43,251 nt of DNA from Bacteroidota bacterium. GTDB lineage: Bacteria; Bacteroidota; Bacteroidia; Chitinophagales; LD1. The stretch is taken from assembly GCA_947476645.1 (NCBI GenBank), contig CANJRM010000020.1, positions 1-43,251 of the forward strand, written 5' to 3'. This document shows positions 4,913-35,304 of this stretch, piece by piece (the first letter of the stretch is position 1; each line of letters opens with the position of its first letter). A program made the position numbers and the translations under genes. The notes beneath the pieces were generated by a model. It ran no database searches. It was not told the DNA's origin and was given only the letters and a program-made list of their open reading frames with translations.

Positions 4913-4952
4913 ATTCGCTAATCCGCTAATTCTCATATTCTCACATTTCACA
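4913..4952. repeat. Degenerate octamer array abutting a stop codon
   Basis: Eight-base units ATTCGCTA (4913), ATCCGCTA (4921), ATTCTCAT (4929) and ATTCTCAC (4937), then a decayed unit, run up to the stop codon (complement of 4948-4950) of the minus-strand gene. The same words recur at 22444-22470, and in inverse orientation at 35254-35285. Confidence 0.65.
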
Positions 4953-19432: not shown

Positions 19433-21889
19433 ATGAAAAAAATAATAACGGGCGTATGCCTGCTCCTCATGTGTCTTGCCCTGCAAGCACAGCCGGGATT
19501 GCAAGGCATCATCGTAGAAAAATACTACGTGTCGAATGCCAATGATTCGATTGTAAGTGCGGCTCAGGGCGGAGGTAATCTTCGTGTGGGTTCAGTTACC
19601 TGGAGATTTTATGCGGATTTACTTCCAAGCTATAAATTACAAGCAGTGTATGGAGTAGATGTGGCTCCAACAGGCACTGTAAGTTCGGGTGATCATGAAT
19701 TGCGTTTAGAAACTTCTACTAAATTCTTCAACAACCAAGATAGAGGTGCGGTAACTCCTACTTATACAAAAGCACAAACAGCTTCAAATTCAGTATTGCT
19801 TGACTCATGGTTTTCTATGGGCAACGGTTGTGCAGGATACTATGGCGTGCTAAAATCTGTTGACAACGGAGTAAGCACAACAGCAAACGCAAATGGAATG
19901 CTATTGAACACAGACCCAATTGCCGGAAACTTAACATCGCAAGATGGATTGCTTACAGGCAGTGGTGCTGCACAAGCAGTTACAAGAGTTCCTGCAACTT
20001 TAGGAGATGCAGCTTTTGACAATGTAAGTAATAATGCAAGTCTGTTTTCAACTTACAATGGTTCATGGGCATCTTTGAACGGTTCTTCGGGTCCCGATAC
20101 TTCTAATAAAGTATTGATTGCTCAAATGACTACCAACGGAACGCTGACTTACGCTTTCAATTTACAAATAGGAACACCCTCAGGTGGAGTTCAACGTTTT
20201 GTTGCTGCAAATCCTGTAGGAAGCGAAACTTATAATTCAACTCTAAGCGGTACGTTGTATCCATTTGCCGGTTGTTCTTGCACTACACCTACTTTGCCTA
20301 CTACGCCTGCGTTATTAGCAAGTACGGGAAGTGCAAAAGTATGTCCTGGCGATGTGCGCAAATACACCGTTACTAAGGTTGGTTGTACCCTTCATGTATG
20401 GACAGCACCATCTGGTGCTACAATAACTGCGGGTCAGAATACGGATACCGTAACCATTACTTACGGTGCTGGTTTTACAGCTAACGGAACACTTTCGGTA
20501 GTAGCTCAAAATGCTTGCGGTACATCAAGTGCTGCTAAAACTTTAGCTATTTCGCGCAATGTGCCGGCAACACCAGGTGTTATTACTGGTCCAAGTACTG
20601 TAGTTTGTACTGCAACAAACAAAAACTATTCGGTAGTAAATGTAAGCGGCATTACTTACAACTGGAGTGGAACATCTGGTATTGGAATTACCGGTGGTCA
20701 AGGCTCTAACGCGGTTACGGCAACATTTACCGGATTCACCTCGGGAACGCTTTCTGTTACGGCACATAATACGTGTGCTACAAGTGCTGCTAGAACTTTA
20801 GCAATAACTTCTGTACCTGCCGCAACTACTGGTATCACTGTTACAGGTGGTGCAGTTAAAGTATGCAATGGCGATACAAGAACTTATTCAGTTACTAATG
20901 TTGCAGGTGTTACCTATACATGGACTGTTCCAACAGGTGCTACCATCAATAGCGGACAAGGAACAAATAGCATTTCAGTTACTTACGGTGCAGGTTTTGT
21001 TGCTGACGGAACAATTGGTGTTACTCCTTCAAACGCATGCGGTAATGGACCTTTAAAAACGTTGGCTATTGCAAGAAACATTTTAGCGGCTCCGGCTACT
21101 CTTACGGGAACAACTTACGACCTTTGCGGAGCTACAGGTGTAGTATATACATCTGCATCAGTAAGCGGTGCAAGTAGCTATACATGGACTACCACTACGG
21201 GAACTTTCAATCCTGTAAGCACTACTGAAACAGCTACAATTGATTTCCCTTCTACCAACTTCACCGCTACTATAAAAGTAAATGCTAATAACGGATGCGG
21301 AGCAGGATTACAAAAATCACTGACTGCTTATGCTAAACCAGCAGTACCTGTTATTACTGGTAATGCAACAGTTTGTAACAATGCTTTAGAAACATACTCT
21401 GCTACCGCGGGTGCAAGTTCTTATGTATGGACAATACCGGCTGGAGCTACTTTTGTTGGTTCTTCAACTGGTTCTACGGTTCAGGTTCAGTTTGGAACTA
21501 TTCCTGTAAATCCAAAAATCATTGTGAAAAATTACAATGCTTGTACTTACAATACAAAAACACTTACGCTAGTGTGGGGTTCATGCAAAACGGATGAAGC
21601 TACAACAAGTATTGAAGTAGAAAAAGAAATGGGTATTTCTGATTTGAATGTGTTCCCTAATCCTTCTAGTTCGGTTTTCAATCTTTCTTTTAATAGCGGA
21701 ACAGATGGCGAGCAAATGAATATTCGTGTATTTGATGTCGCAGGAAAATTAGTGAAAGAAGTAAATGAACTTTCTCATTCAGGTGCAACGAATGTTGCGG
21801 TTGATTTGAGTTCAGAAGCTTCGGGTGTTTATGTAATGAGTTTACAAACACAAGGAGTAACAAAACGCATACGCTTAGTTAAAGAGTAA
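19433..21889 (+). CDS. T9SS-secreted protein with shared N-terminal domain and five PKD/Ig-like repeats (paralog 3)
   Basis: An 818-residue exported protein, the largest paralog. After the signal peptide (ending ALQAQ) the shared domain is closest to that of paralog 1: EKYYVSNAND, GSVTWRFYADLLPSY, VYGVDVAPTG, GDHELRLETSTKFFNNQDRG, LDSWFSMG, LFSTYNGSWA, VLIAQMTTNGTL and QIGTPSGGVQRFVAANPVG. Residues about 295-720 hold five degenerate PKD/Ig-like repeats of 75-85 residues. These typically carry a Cys early (KVCPGD, VVCTAT, KVCNGD, DLCGA, TVCNN) and a second Cys in a word like NACG or NTCA, consistent with intradomain disulfides. A type A T9SS tail ends the protein (LNVFPNPSSSVFNLSF, ASGVYVMSLQTQG). 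It is followed by a terminator at 21918-21945. Confidence 0.9.
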   Translation: MKKIITGVCLLLMCLALQAQPGLQGIIVEKYYVSNANDSIVSAAQGGGNLRVGSVTWRFYADLLPSYKLQAVYGVDVAPTGTVSSGDHELRLETSTKFFNNQDRGAVTPTYTKAQTASNSVLLDSWFSMGNGCAGYYGVLKSVDNGVSTTANANGMLLNTDPIAGNLTSQDGLLTGSGAAQAVTRVPATLGDAAFDNVSNNASLFSTYNGSWASLNGSSGPDTSNKVLIAQMTTNGTLTYAFNLQIGTPSGGVQRFVAANPVGSETYNSTLSGTLYPFAGCSCTTPTLPTTPALLASTGSAKVCPGDVRKYTVTKVGCTLHVWTAPSGATITAGQNTDTVTITYGAGFTANGTLSVVAQNACGTSSAAKTLAISRNVPATPGVITGPSTVVCTATNKNYSVVNVSGITYNWSGTSGIGITGGQGSNAVTATFTGFTSGTLSVTAHNTCATSAARTLAITSVPAATTGITVTGGAVKVCNGDTRTYSVTNVAGVTYTWTVPTGATINSGQGTNSISVTYGAGFVADGTIGVTPSNACGNGPLKTLAIARNILAAPATLTGTTYDLCGATGVVYTSASVSGASSYTWTTTTGTFNPVSTTETATIDFPSTNFTATIKVNANNGCGAGLQKSLTAYAKPAVPVITGNATVCNNALETYSATAGASSYVWTIPAGATFVGSSTGSTVQVQFGTIPVNPKIIVKNYNACTYNTKTLTLVWGSCKTDEATTSIEVEKEMGISDLNVFPNPSSSVFNLSFNSGTDGEQMNIRVFDVAGKLVKEVNELSHSGATNVAVDLSSEASGVYVMSLQTQGVTKRIRLVKE

Positions 21890-21917
21890 GTCTTTTTGTA
21901 TCATTTAATATGTGTAG

Positions 21918-21955
21918 CGGCTCGTCAAGTAAAATTGGCGAGCCGTTTTTGTTTT
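21918..21955 (+). terminator. Terminator at the end of the surface locus
   Basis: CGGCTCG at 21918-21924 pairs with CGAGCCG at 21939-21945, followed by TTTTTGTTTT. It lies 28 bases after the stop of paralog 3 and probably ends the surface-locus transcript. Confidence 0.9.
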
Positions 21956-22043
21956 AAACCAACATTCTCTTTCTTAATGAATTGGGTTTTTTTCTCCACT
22001 GTTTCACAGGAGAAAAGTCCGAATTAACACACAAATTACTCCA

Positions 22044-22388
22044 TTTTACAAGCAGTAAACACGTTTGACACGCCCGAAAATCAATTTTACACGTCCAGCA
22101 ACACGGTTTACATTCGTGGAAACTGTTTTGACATACTCGAAAGTCGCTTTTACATCGTCCGCAACGTATTTGACATTCACGAAAACCACTTTTACATCCT
22201 CCGCAAAGCAATTGACACGCACGAAAACCCTTTTGACAAACGTGAAAATCGTATTGACACACACGAAATCGTATTTGACACGCGGGAAAATCACTTTTAC
22301 ATCTCCCGCAAAGCATTGACATGCCCGGAAATCACTTTTACACGCTCCGCAACACATTAAGCAAACCTGTAAACGCAATTAACATGCA
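22044..22388. repeat. Degenerate tandem array with a 21-bp period
   Basis: About 16 units, each headed by TTTGACA or TTTTACA. The ACA of successive heads falls at 22048, 22068, 22089, 22110, 22131, 22152, 22173, 22194, 22215, 22236, 22257, 22278, 22299, 22319, 22340 and (after a decayed unit) 22382. The step is 21 bases throughout except for two 20-base steps. Two unit classes alternate irregularly: TTTGACA heads are followed by a CGAAAA-type tail and TTTTACA heads by a CCGCAA-type tail. Because 21 is a multiple of 3 and the unit lacks stops, three frames stay open through it (minus 21954-22322 and 22046-22378, plus 22065-22319), but none looks like a natural protein. It sits between convergent genes and between two terminators. 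Confidence 0.85.
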
Positions 22389-22390
22389 TA

Positions 22391-22428
22391 AACAAAACAG
22401 CCCCCAGTACTCGGGGGGCTGTTTTGTT
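22391..22428. terminator. Bidirectional terminator hairpin
   Basis: AACAAAACAGCCCCC (22391-22405) pairs with the complementary arm at 22413-22428 with one extra G. The A-rich and T-rich flanks allow function on both strands. It probably serves the minus-strand 22478-26557 gene and closes the right side of the 21-bp array. Confidence 0.88.
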
Positions 22429-22443
22429 ATTACTGGCTTCTCA

Positions 22444-22470
22444 ATTCGCTAATTCTCACATTCTCACATT
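22444..22470. repeat. Octamer array, second copy
   Basis: Units ATTCGCTA (22444), ATTCTCAC (22452) and ATTCTCAC (22460), then a decayed ATT. It ends 8 bases before the stop codon of the minus-strand gene at 22478 and uses the same words as the array at 4913-4952, in the same orientation relative to the adjoining gene end. Confidence 0.65.
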
Positions 22471-22477
22471 ATTTTCT

Positions 22478-25400
22478 CTATCTCATCAACGTTATCGTTC
22501 CCTTCGAGCTTCGGTTCGTATTATCGTCATACACAATTACAGCCGTGTAAGTATAAACGCCCGCCTGGCATTCCTTGCCCTGGTAAGTTCCGTCCCAGCT
22601 TTGTATCGTGCTGTTGCTTTCAAAAACCTTTTCGCCCCAGCGGTTAAAAATGCGGAACTCAAAATAACGCAGCCCCGTGCTGAACACCTGCAACACATCG
22701 TTCTGTCCGTCACCGTTTGGCGTAAACACATTTGGTATAAACACCTTCGGAATGTCGTAAATAGTAATGTAGTTGGCGCGTGCAGCCGTGTCGTTACAGC
22801 CATACACGTTGCTTGCAAAAAGTTCCACATTGTAAATGCCGGCCTTAGTGTAAGCGTGTGTAGGTGCCTGCAAAGCCGAGTTGGTATTGTCGCCAAAATT
22901 CCAAACCCAGGCATCGGAATTAGTGCTTGAATTAGTAAAGCGAATAGGAGCTGCATCGTCATTCACATAACCTATCAAAGGGTTTGCGCTAAAGTCTGCC
23001 ACAGCTACAGGGTGCGTGTAAGCTGTGCCGCTGGTCGTATCAAAACAATTGCCTAATTGCGCAATTAAGGTAACGGCAAATGAATCAACGGTAGCGTAGG
23101 TGTGTGTAGGATTATCCACCACATCGGTAGTGCCGTCACCAAAACTCCAGGCATAAGTATTTCCAAAAACAGGAGTAGAAGTATTGGTGAACGTATTTGG
23201 CAACCCCAAACAAACTTCATCTACAGTAAAACCTGCCACCGGATTTGGATTTACATTTACTGTTGTTGTGGCTGTGTTGCTACAGGTGTTTGCATCGGTC
23301 ACAGTAACCGTGTAAGGCGTAGTAGCCGCAGGTGTAGCAATCGGGTTTTGGATATTGGCATTATTCAAATCGGCAGATGGGCTCCATGCAAAACTTGTTG
23401 CAGTAGCAGCAGTCACGCCTATCTGCGCGCTTTGTCCTGCGCAAATATCTACGGTAGGCACAGTCGAAACAACAGGCAAAGGATTCACGGTGTAATTAAT
23501 ACTGTCAAGCCCCGAGCATCCGGTAATGGCATCGGTATAACTATACACGAGCGAAAAAATTCCCGCGCCCGCAGTAGAAGTATTAAAATCTCCGGTAGGG
23601 TTCACAATTCCTGTTCCTGTCCACGCGCCACCTGCGGGTGAAAAACCTGCAAGCGTTACCAAACCTAAATCAATGCAATCAGCGCGGTCGTTACCAGCGT
23701 TTACTATTGGTGCTGCCTGTACCGCAGTTACTATAGCTGCCGAAGGCGGGCTAACACAACCTAAATCAGTAGCTACCACAGTAACACTGCTTGGGTTTGT
23801 CAAAAGATTGGTGGTATAAATATTTGAAGAACTGCTTTGCACATTCGTTGCACCGTCAAAAAAATCATAAGTGCCATACGTAGCAGGCGAAGCAGTAAAC
23901 GTTATCGAAGTTCCCTGGCAAATCGAATTGTCTGCATCGCTGCTTGTTAGTGTTACTGCTGGAATAGGATTAACTGTAAGCACAATGGCACTAGTAGGTA
24001 AACCCGGGCAGCCCGCTAAAGAACCCGAAACAAAAACAGCATCATTATTATTGAATGCAGAAGAAGAGTAAGTGTTAGCCGTGGTGTTTTGCACCGATAC
24101 ACCGTTCAGATTAAAATCATAATTATCGAGCCCCAAAGGCGAAGCGGTAAACGTAACCGGGTCACCCTGACAAATCGTAGTGTCGGTAGATACCAGTGTT
24201 ATAATCGGAATTGGTTTGACAAACATTGGAATGATATTACTCCAAGGGCTTGAGCATCCAAGGTCAGTAGCTATCACATGAATTTGATTTCCCGTACTCA
24301 GGGTAGTGCTCGTCCACGTAGTGCCCGGTCCCGATTGTTGTAACGAACCGCCCACATAAAAATCATACTGTGCGTATCCCGCAGGAGCAGCAGTAAACGT
24401 TACTGCATCGCCTCCGCAAATGGTATCATCAGCATCTGAACTGGTCACTGTAACCGCAGGAATCGGATTCACCACCGGCCCCAGCACCGCACTTGGATTA
24501 CTGAAACAAACACCGTCAAAGGCCACCACTCTCACGCTATCGCCCTGCACCAAACCATTCGCCAAATAGGTATTGCTATTCGCACTTTGAACAGGATTAT
24601 TGTTTACAAAAAACGTGTACTGCTGATACCCCGCTGGTGTAGCCGTGTAAGTAATAGGGTCACCCGCACAAATAGTAGTGTCAGAAGCCGTAAGGGTAAT
24701 GTTTATTGTATTTGGCTGCACATTAAACACCAATGAATCTTTTACTCTTCCGCAACATTGTGTAGTTACCCAAACCACTACTGTATGACTTCCTGTTGCA
24801 GTAAACGAAACCTGCCCGCTTTGACTGGTTGCAGTAGTATCTTTGTTTGGAGTAGCATTAGGACCAAAATCCCATTCATAAGAAATTCCCGAAAGCGTAT
24901 CAGTAAACACATCGGGGCAACCTACCACTGCAGGATTGTTGGTGTGCGAAAGCGAACCACCCGCCTGTGTTTTCCATAGCTCAATAAAATCGGTAAACGC
25001 AGTTCCACCAAGAGTAATCGTCTTTCTTCCCATCGAACTATACATCACCGAAACAGGGCCAACTGTATTGTTAGCAGTAGCAGGCGTTGCACCCGCACCA
25101 AAATCCCAGTTGCCCGCAACAGGTGTGGTAAAAACAACTTCTGCATTCGTGCACCCGTGATTCAACACCGCAATTGCAGGAGGATTTCCCGGCACCGATA
25201 AAATATTGTTTTGAGTAACAGGTGTTCCACCATTCTGCGAAAGCGCCATACTTAATCCCTGTGCACCTGCACCACCTGCGCCACCCGATGCACCGTCACC
25301 CCCTGCACCACCTGCTGCTCCGTTACTCTGTCCACATCCGAAACCAGGTCCACCTGCACCACCCGCACCACCTGCTGCTCCTGCTGCTCCTGCACCACCC

Positions 25401-26557
25401 GCACCACCCGCACCACCTGCGCCTGCTGTCAATTTGCAATCAGTAATATTTCCACCTGCACCATTATTAAAAAGAAAAACAGCAAACGAGCCACCGCCTC
25501 CGGTACCTCCAGTACCGCCACCACCACCAGTGCCACCACCACCACCACCACCACCACTTCCACCCACATCATCATTTCCATTTTGTTGTCTTCCACCACC
25601 ACCACCACCACCACCACCACCACAACCGCTTGTTCCTGCTGTTCCTGCACCACCTGCAGTACCGGGAACAAAATATCCGGGAATTGCAATTGTTCCTGCC
25701 GGACCAACTCCACCCGCAACTCCATTCGTTACACCTGTACTTCCTGCTACCCCCGCGCTTGGAGAACCACCACCACAACCACCGTTATGTGAAGTGCCGA
25801 ATAAACCACAACCGCAATTAGGACCTGTGCCACCATTACCTCCAGCGGCTCCACAGCTTCCCGCTACTCCAATTGACGATGCCGAACCTGCCCACTTTCC
25901 ACCTGTACCTCCATTTCCTCCACCTGGTAATCCACCAATTCCTCCAGCGGGAACGCACGATTCATCGCAACCTGGTAATCCATTTGCGCCTGGTGTTCCC
26001 GGTACTCCGGGTGCACCTGGCGTTCCTGCTACCCCAGGTGTTCCATCGGCAGAAGTTACATCAACGCGTACAATGTTGTAATTGCTGCAACCGTTTAAAT
26101 AAATGCCGTAAGCAGATGAAGCAATTCCAAAAGGAACATCCATAATCAATGTCAAATCCTGCAAGCGGAAACCCGAAACGTTTACTCCTGCAATTATAGC
26201 TGTGCCGTTAGCCGGAGGCGGAAGTACAATCGCATTTAAGCGATGAATAACAGTTGGAGGTGTGTTTCTTTTCACCCAGTTCTGCAACGGGTCGAAACCT
26301 CCTTCAATGGTGATGTTGTTCACGAGCATCAATTCAGCGTTAATGTCGTAGTTACCCGCAGCTAACCACAAACGACTGTTGGCGGGAGTTACTAATTGAA
26401 GTGCGCGAGGAAGGTTCGCAGGATCAGCTTTGGTTCCTGCTCCTGCAGGATTCCCATTGGGAACCACATAAATTACATCGCATTCCTGTGCCGAAACAAA
26501 AGCAACAGAAAACAGAAGAAATAAGTTGAGGAGAACTGCCTTGTAAATTTTAATCAT
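22478..26557 (-). CDS. Giant T9SS type B-sorted surface protein: beta-helix, glycine-rich region, PKD-like domains
   Basis: A 1359-residue secreted protein. A signal peptide ends near FVSAQ (about residue 23). Residues about 24-165 look like the start of a right-handed beta-helix (WLAAGNYDINAELMLVNNI, IEGGFDPLQNW, VSGFRLQDLTLIMDV). Residues about 170-445 are very rich in Gly, Ala, Thr and Pro, with collagen-like GTPGVAGTPGAPGVPGTPG, poly-Gly runs and GGAGGAGGAG, interrupted by short beta-helix-like rungs (GSFAVFLFNNGAGGNITDCKL). Residues about 450-1240 carry repeated PKD/Ig-like modules (DTTICAGDPITYTATP, DDTICGGDAVTFTAAP, DTTICQGDPVTFTASP, YAWSFGDGTTDVVDNPTHTY, WVWNFGDNTNSALQAPTHAY). The C-terminus (VFIPNVFTPNGDGQNDVL, FRIFNRWGEKVFES, WDGTYQGKECQAGVYTY) is the gliding-motility-associated type B T9SS sorting domain. 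An adhesin or matrix role is plausible, not shown. Confidence 0.93.
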   Translation of the reverse strand: MIKIYKAVLLNLFLLFSVAFVSAQECDVIYVVPNGNPAGAGTKADPANLPRALQLVTPANSRLWLAAGNYDINAELMLVNNITIEGGFDPLQNWVKRNTPPTVIHRLNAIVLPPPANGTAIIAGVNVSGFRLQDLTLIMDVPFGIASSAYGIYLNGCSNYNIVRVDVTSADGTPGVAGTPGAPGVPGTPGANGLPGCDESCVPAGGIGGLPGGGNGGTGGKWAGSASSIGVAGSCGAAGGNGGTGPNCGCGLFGTSHNGGCGGGSPSAGVAGSTGVTNGVAGGVGPAGTIAIPGYFVPGTAGGAGTAGTSGCGGGGGGGGGGRQQNGNDDVGGSGGGGGGGGTGGGGGTGGTGGGGSFAVFLFNNGAGGNITDCKLTAGAGGAGGAGGAGAAGAAGGAGGAGGPGFGCGQSNGAAGGAGGDGASGGAGGAGAQGLSMALSQNGGTPVTQNNILSVPGNPPAIAVLNHGCTNAEVVFTTPVAGNWDFGAGATPATANNTVGPVSVMYSSMGRKTITLGGTAFTDFIELWKTQAGGSLSHTNNPAVVGCPDVFTDTLSGISYEWDFGPNATPNKDTTATSQSGQVSFTATGSHTVVVWVTTQCCGRVKDSLVFNVQPNTINITLTASDTTICAGDPITYTATPAGYQQYTFFVNNNPVQSANSNTYLANGLVQGDSVRVVAFDGVCFSNPSAVLGPVVNPIPAVTVTSSDADDTICGGDAVTFTAAPAGYAQYDFYVGGSLQQSGPGTTWTSTTLSTGNQIHVIATDLGCSSPWSNIIPMFVKPIPIITLVSTDTTICQGDPVTFTASPLGLDNYDFNLNGVSVQNTTANTYSSSAFNNNDAVFVSGSLAGCPGLPTSAIVLTVNPIPAVTLTSSDADNSICQGTSITFTASPATYGTYDFFDGATNVQSSSSNIYTTNLLTNPSSVTVVATDLGCVSPPSAAIVTAVQAAPIVNAGNDRADCIDLGLVTLAGFSPAGGAWTGTGIVNPTGDFNTSTAGAGIFSLVYSYTDAITGCSGLDSINYTVNPLPVVSTVPTVDICAGQSAQIGVTAATATSFAWSPSADLNNANIQNPIATPAATTPYTVTVTDANTCSNTATTTVNVNPNPVAGFTVDEVCLGLPNTFTNTSTPVFGNTYAWSFGDGTTDVVDNPTHTYATVDSFAVTLIAQLGNCFDTTSGTAYTHPVAVADFSANPLIGYVNDDAAPIRFTNSSTNSDAWVWNFGDNTNSALQAPTHAYTKAGIYNVELFASNVYGCNDTAARANYITIYDIPKVFIPNVFTPNGDGQNDVLQVFSTGLRYFEFRIFNRWGEKVFESNSTIQSWDGTYQGKECQAGVYTYTAVIVYDDNTNRSSKGTITLMR
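25509..25624. repeat. Slippage-prone GGT/CCA triplet runs
   Basis: Within the glycine-rich coding region the plus strand shows two long CCA/CAC runs, roughly 25519-25558 and 25588-25624, encoding poly-Gly with almost only GGT codons on the minus strand. Such uniform triplets can expand or contract in steps of one residue without a frameshift. Confidence 0.75.
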
Positions 26558-35185: not shown

Positions 35186-35253
35186 TCGATTGATTGTTGG
35201 TTATTGAAAGCGAGACGAAAATAATTTAATGGGGTGAATAGGCAACAGTCAAT

Positions 35254-35285
35254 TTGAGAATGTGATGATGTGAGAATGTGAGAAT
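35254..35285. repeat. Octamer array, inverted copy in a divergent promoter region
   Basis: Units TTGAGAAT (35254), GTGATGAT (35262), GTGAGAAT (35270) and GTGAGAAT (35278). These are the reverse complement of the ATTCTCAC words at 4937 and 22452. The array lies between the divergent sucC and lolD-like genes and supplies a spurious in-frame GTG to the latter. Confidence 0.65.
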
Positions 35286-35304
35286 GATAATTCATATTAG
35301 CACC

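Follow-up and report, generated by a model that had tools for sequence, protein, structure and literature searches.

A decayed array with a 21-base step in a Bacteroidota genome: probable member of a lineage-specific class of intergenic minisatellites

Tandem repeats usually come either with many periods in one genome or as one word copied to many places, and ordinary bacterial VNTR and minisatellite sets have mixed periods. One of the closest described cases is from Porphyromonas gingivalis, which belongs to the same phylum as the host of the array described here. The BrickBuilt and MITE464/PgRS elements of that species are intergenic and built of imperfect tandem units, 23 and 41 bases long, that follow one another directly with no spacers; BrickBuilt-type elements place one word family at many loci, with a leader, a tail and inverted-repeat ends (PMC4596501). 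Borg repeats have independent origins and nearly all unique words that differ between close relatives; they are mostly perfect and A-rich, with intergenic unit lengths divisible by three in only 14–38% (PMC9879509). TAACTGA intergenic heptamer repeats occur in Beggiatoaceae and also in five Bacteroidetes, with one word throughout (PMC4679880).

Our array (Table 1) lies in a window of 43,251 nucleotides, the whole stretch of DNA analysed, on contig CANJRM010000020.1 of a Bacteroidota bacterium. Like intergenic minisatellites, it and the arrays that share its step are made of head-to-tail units of about 10–100 bases, without spacers and outside genes. They resemble bacterial VNTRs and minisatellites generally in their tandem units and, presumably, their copy-number dynamics, but differ from the mixed-period sets in having one locked step. 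Like BrickBuilt and MITE464/PgRS they are intergenic, with unit lengths near two and four helical turns; they differ from BrickBuilt (PMC4596501) in that the word is specific to its locus in most cases and that no common ends could be detected. Independent origin and private words recall Borg repeats, whereas the units here are decayed and their step is fixed (PMC9879509). Genome-wide intergenic direct repeats, and the fact that 21 is 3 x 7, recall the TAACTGA repeats (PMC4679880), but identity at lags 7 and 14 is near background in the window array (0.23 and 0.22) and likewise in most arrays of the class. We accordingly rejected an intergenic heptamer repeat of the STRR/TAACTGA type, the window array having no 7-base periodicity. 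A search of the full-text literature by titles and abstract openings, with most subscription papers outside its coverage, found no report of an array class that is locked in period and private in its words.

Table 1. Coordinates of the array and of neighbouring features in the window
Feature	Position	Strand	Remarks
Degenerate 21-base-step array, about 15–16 units	22044..22388	.	Two unit types, TTTGACA...CGAAAA and TTTTACA...CCGCAA, in largely alternating order
Best-preserved core: eleven consecutive 21-base units and a twelfth of 20 bases	22064..22314	.	Contains the four successive G-type units
Segment with no homology detected in G014/G015	21959..22478	.	Its sides lie on different sister contigs
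Left neighbour gene	19433..21889	+	PKD_6 repeats and Por_Secre_tail sorting domain
Right neighbour gene	22478..26557	-	PKD, Ig_7 and CHU_C type IX secretion signal domains
Left gene's terminator-like hairpin	21916..21947	+	Slightly changed version in both sister species
Terminator-like hairpin, right side of the array	22401..22417	.	Reads in both directions

The array holds 15 TT[G/T]ACA (TTKACA) heads, starting at 22045, 22065, 22086 and onward to 22337, and the original prediction of about 16 units is close, with decayed units at both ends. Of the 14 head-to-head steps, 12 are exactly 21 bases and two are 20, these being the first and the thirteenth. Self-identity is 0.49 at lag 21, 0.57 at lag 42 and 0.51 at lag 63, against a maximum of 0.39 at any lag from 10 to 63 among 2000 first-order Markov sequences of the array's composition. 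The near-exact 21-base step, which had been equated with two turns of the helix, is therefore real and far beyond chance; TRF also detects the array, fragmented into periods of 42 and 21. The two covarying unit types were likewise confirmed. Fourteen units could be classified, that at 22045 being left out as "other". All 8 units with G at base 4 have a GAAA/GGAA-type tail, and 5/6 with T there have a GCAA tail, the unit at 22107 being the exception (Fisher p = 0.003). The types mostly alternate, with four successive G-type units at heads 22212–22275, and the array is thus in part a 42-base composite. Across 11 units the TT and ACA columns are invariant and the other columns are free.

The window units abut at 21 bases without spacers, which agrees with the earlier statement that the array is not a CRISPR. 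Terminator-like hairpins do enclose it, as had been claimed, on the plus strand at the left and on both strands at the right; 3 such sites were found against 0.7 expected in shuffles. Both flanking genes, which converge on the array, carry type IX secretion signals. Recurrence at convergent gene ends, which the original prediction named as a sign of function, was not a special feature: members of the class occur between genes of any relative orientation (convergent, divergent or same-direction), so the convergent setting of the window array is incidental.

To place the array among its relatives we counted tandem arrays of at least 80 bp with TRF, excluding those within an ORF that extends at least 300 bases beyond them, and called a period "near 21n" if it fell within 2 bp of a multiple of 21. 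The own-genome sample covered 443 kb, about 12% of the genome, and consisted of the window and 20 further stretches of 20 kb. Stretches here and in the relatives were in general selected by contig number irrespective of arrays, exceptions being the window and C17, where arrays were already known, and those named below; the genome is a draft of 201 contigs (completeness 89.89), stretches other than the window are at most 20 kb, and gene calls are simple ORFs. Eleven of the 12 arrays outside longer ORFs were near 21n (9/10 without the window and C17 arrays), with periods of 21 five times and 41, 42, 63, 84, 105 and 147 once each; the exception was a weak period of 24. The congener G009 gave 17/17 (280 kb), G016 1/1 (34 kb) and G017 1/1 (20 kb), G009 and G016 having been noticed through an array. 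An even spread of periods would put about 24% within 2 bp of 21n, and the chance of 17/17 is near 1e-11. Several arrays of the class have 41-base steps. Arrays inside longer ORFs are unlocked, with 7/29 near 21n in the own genome and 3/9 in G009. A separate lag scan, which omits arrays crossed by chance ORFs and among them the window array, agrees, with 8/8 in the own genome and 7/7 in G009.

This lock is patchy across species. The closest species, G014 and G015 (hereafter the sisters), have 0/2 arrays near 21n in 434 kb, some of it chosen for homology to array sites, with periods of 38 and 51. In eight other congeners 1/2 arrays (periods 25 and 83) are near 21n; no arrays occur in nine stretches from outside the genus but within the family, and 20 stretches from other families hold 0/8 near 21n. 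Four more distant genomes (G179, G359, G198 and G181), selected on the strength of arrays that a biased search had turned up, gave 5/11. The G016 arrays L062, L063 and L106 stand at contig starts, so assemblies may break on such arrays and the counts may be too low. Elsewhere, TTTACA/TTGACA heads recur at 22- or 23-base steps in other families (L043 and L070 in G179, L031 in G047, L069 in G219, L032 in G326). They were found with a biased pattern, and a lag scan of 80 kb more of G179 showed no further arrays of these steps; other species perhaps lock to other steps.

What the arrays do not share is their sequence. An all-vs-all comparison of 44 arrays yielded four strong pairs (E <= 1e-10), each inside one genome, and four weak pairs (E 0.0004–0.003), three of them between genomes; judged by sequence similarity, most arrays have private words. 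The words of the window array occur at one further locus in the draft genome, as four units 81% identical at C17:14259-14332, behind a gene that presumably encodes a phytoene-desaturase-like oxidoreductase. A second array beside this copy has a different word and again a 21-base step. In 98 other genomes of the order the best match to the window words is 20 bases long (E = 0.0076). The exact word pair has 3 matches in 257 billion bases of genome contigs, each single and without a surrounding array, 0 in viral contigs and none in phages or plasmids, in searches that may leave out the window's own genome. Three TTKACA heads at 19–23 spacing match 108/396 genomes of the order, many of them through heptamer repeats or chance and with reversed-pattern controls often equally high; the search nonetheless led to true arrays in G009, G016, G234, G359, G179 and others. 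The proposed check for recurrence in the genome and its relatives thus came out in part: the 21-base step recurs in the genome and in some relatives, but the window words are at one other place and the words of other arrays differ. The step is the sole common feature that we found across the class.

The arrays also do not share positions. Seven own arrays were compared with the sisters (one genome per species), of which six are informative, the L078 array lying in a region without synteny in the sisters. None of the six was found in G014 or in the inspected G015 sequence, and three (C17, L082 and L080) are insertions relative to colinear flanks in at least one sister. The C17 locus has 590 bases with both arrays here against 0 bases in both sisters, where the next gene's leader follows directly after the stop codon. 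At L082, 283 bases lie between homologous flanks here against 18 in G014, and the region is rearranged in G015, with no array in the fetched stretches. L080 has about 845 bases here, array included, and about 130 in G014; its flanks are separated in G015, where the inspection covered the left one. A small helix-turn-helix-like gene, identified by reading the sequence and not by family search, stands directly behind the array in the L080 insertion (L080:17343-18179). For L074 and L089 the flanking genes were located in the sisters with changed neighbours and no non-coding array next to them was found; at L089 the right flank matches many places, so that certainty of placement is limited to the left gene.

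At the window locus, sister homology ends at 21953–21958, just beyond the left terminator, and resumes at 22479, in the right gene's stop codon. On our reading of the sequence, the right gene in both sisters is closely followed by another same-direction gene, and the fetched sister flanks hold no non-coding array. The window and L074 arrays, and perhaps the L089 array, coincide with breaks in synteny with both sisters. We do not claim a rearrangement hot spot at arrays; breaks without arrays also occur (around L080:9640 and 12800 against G014). The array-rich G009 has no array outside genes at the loci matching these flanks (L162, L180, L192 and L199). With arrays missing at matching loci in the sisters and in G009, array positions are not conserved. 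The check for conserved spacing between orthologous genes was therefore negative in the relatives examined, and the chromosome-domain marker that had been suggested is disfavoured, at least as a conserved one.

The ages of most of these arrays raise no difficulty. The distance to the sisters at fourfold sites is 0.41–0.70, and mean unit identity is 0.48–0.77 in the 21 of 36 arrays that pass the filters given below. Identities of 0.75 (L089), 0.66 (C17 array 2), 0.60 (L082) and 0.55 (L074 and L080) correspond, from highest to lowest, to about 0.30–0.69 substitutions per site, and these five could have arisen by neutral drift on this branch. The window array has a mean unit identity of 0.50, or about 0.82 substitutions per site (Jukes-Cantor, both unit classes mixed), which exceeds the distance to the sisters, where this array is missing; loss in the sisters, ready-made import or faster-than-neutral change must therefore be invoked for it.

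Import is what a miniature mobile element of the BrickBuilt kind would provide, by carrying a ready-made, already diverged minisatellite into the locus. This would solve the age problem of the window array, and both the three insertions against colinear flanks and the recurrence of the window words at one other locus are in keeping with it. Against it, words mostly differ among loci, and 69 flanks of 36 arrays have no common leader or tail. Four pairs of flanks match at E <= 0.001; two of these matches span only 22 bases and another falls within the beginnings of two related genes. Terminal inverted repeats occur in 2/36 arrays against 0.6 expected, the window array not among them. We rejected shared flanks or mobile-element ends as a class property on these grounds, and consider a mobile origin improbable. 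To the right of two unrelated arrays, the ORFs starting at L077:19182-19272 and L089:10974-11064 are 79% identical over their first 91 bases, and both hold 60-base internal repeats.

Because 21 bases equal seven residues, an array could also be, or once have been, a coding heptad repeat. Open frames of 84, 110 and 122 residues do run across the window array. In its 11-unit core one plus frame of the six has the codon-position variation expected of coding (third-highest, second-lowest), but it holds 7 stops, and that order is absent from all four stop-free frames. The window frames reach Pfam scores far short of the cutoff, in several arrays of the class every one of the six frames is interrupted by stops, and a step of 41 bases cannot preserve a reading frame. 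The statement that the array is not an obvious coding repeat stands, these tests giving no evidence of coding; coding was rejected as a class property on frame stops and codon-position variability, and as an explanation it is barely credible. In favour of coding, the second 21-base array in C17 reads as a 64-residue coiled-coil-like frame with EQRLxTL heptads (L007:1891-2085, minus strand; G000 C17), with most variation at third codon positions and least at second ones. By its sequence this frame is possibly a gene born from an array of the class. Rfam returned nothing at gathering score for the window array, only sub-threshold matches.

DNA bending had been proposed, and the predicted curvature of the window array is strong: its end-to-end ratio is 0.49 against 0.90 in column-permuted controls (p = 0.02), it is the most curved of 36 arrays, and its AA/TT power at 10.5 bases has p = 0.04. 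A curved-DNA element, in which a step of whole helical turns would let the bends of the units accumulate, would fit these values, which were predicted from wedge values. As a property of the class, however, curvature was rejected: 3/36 arrays pass the curvature test (median p 0.43) and 6/36 the AA/TT power test. The bending idea thus held for the window array and not as a common trait, and we regard a curved element as very unlikely to be the explanation.

A phased binding platform, also among the earlier suggestions, would place a putative protein or filament on one helix face every two turns, selection keeping the step while words drift or stay locus-specific. The two-turn step speaks for this, as do the invariant TT and ACA columns in 11 window units. 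Column conservation is more uneven than in neutral simulation in 6/21 arrays, the window array included (p = 0.02, 60 simulations), under one neutral model and with filters of at least 8 units and mean identity of at least 0.45, by which 15/36 arrays were dropped; in the window array the uneven columns hint at a constraint on TTKACA. About a third of the arrays also fold better than column-permuted controls (z < -2 in 11/36 on each strand), a share on which we rejected hairpin folding as a class property. Opposed to a platform are the missing common word, the lack of any array found at orthologous sites, the existence of 41-base arrays and the window array's own fold, which is no better than its controls (z +0.84). 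We judge it unlikely.

The class is not accounted for by curvature, by hairpins, by coding or by common mobile-element ends; its observed basis is the shared step, mostly private words, a patchy species distribution and the absence of arrays in close relatives. On balance we favour, as somewhat probable, the view that the window array belongs to a lineage-specific class of intergenic minisatellites with a step locked to 21n, corresponding to two, four and six helical turns, and mostly locus-specific words, born by tandem duplication, homogenised in multiples of 21 and then decaying. Tandem duplication of whatever intergenic sequence is present, with a two-turn step, would start an array; unequal exchange or slippage in whole units would let it grow and homogenise, which would produce the 42-, 63-, 84- and 105-base composites and the decayed end units; and the array would then drift. 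The higher identity at lag 42 than at lag 21 in the window supports higher-order homogenisation. Of the three roles suggested originally, a decayed slippage product comes nearest, in the form of a decayed product of tandem duplication, and there is no need to invoke a function for the window array. Against this class explanation stand the divergence of the window units relative to the sisters, the uneven columns in 6/21 arrays, and the period-24 and 41-base arrays, which are not an exact helical lock.

The cause of the 21-base step is the interesting part, with a dedicated generator or a phase-reading protein as candidates. For the duplication step itself a mutational cause seems likeliest, perhaps copying or repair on DNA held at helical register; we found no known mutational process with a 21-base step. 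A dedicated heritable activity in some species of the genus is possible, although doubtful. It would write or maintain two-turn arrays on arbitrary intergenic sequence, either through copying or repair machinery that advances 21 bases at a time or through a protein lattice that reads length and helical phase in place of sequence. The sisters, without such arrays in the sampled sequence, would presumably lack that activity too. Should the step prove to be under selection, this would suggest a protein that responds to helical phase rather than to sequence.

Here a single period unites many unrelated words, in a trait that some species carry and that was not observed in very close relatives. Comparing gene content between array-rich species and their array-free sisters thus offers a way to learn how a minisatellite comes by its unit length.

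The window holds two further sets of repeats. An 8-base tandem repeat is common to 4929–4952, 22452–22470 and 35251–35286, twice as ATTCTCAC and once as AATGTGAG, the rotated reverse complement of ATTCTCAC. Dense 3/9/15/18/27-base coding repeats occupy 25262–25627 within the PKD/CHU_C protein, whose sister orthologues also show repeats at a lag of 18 bases.
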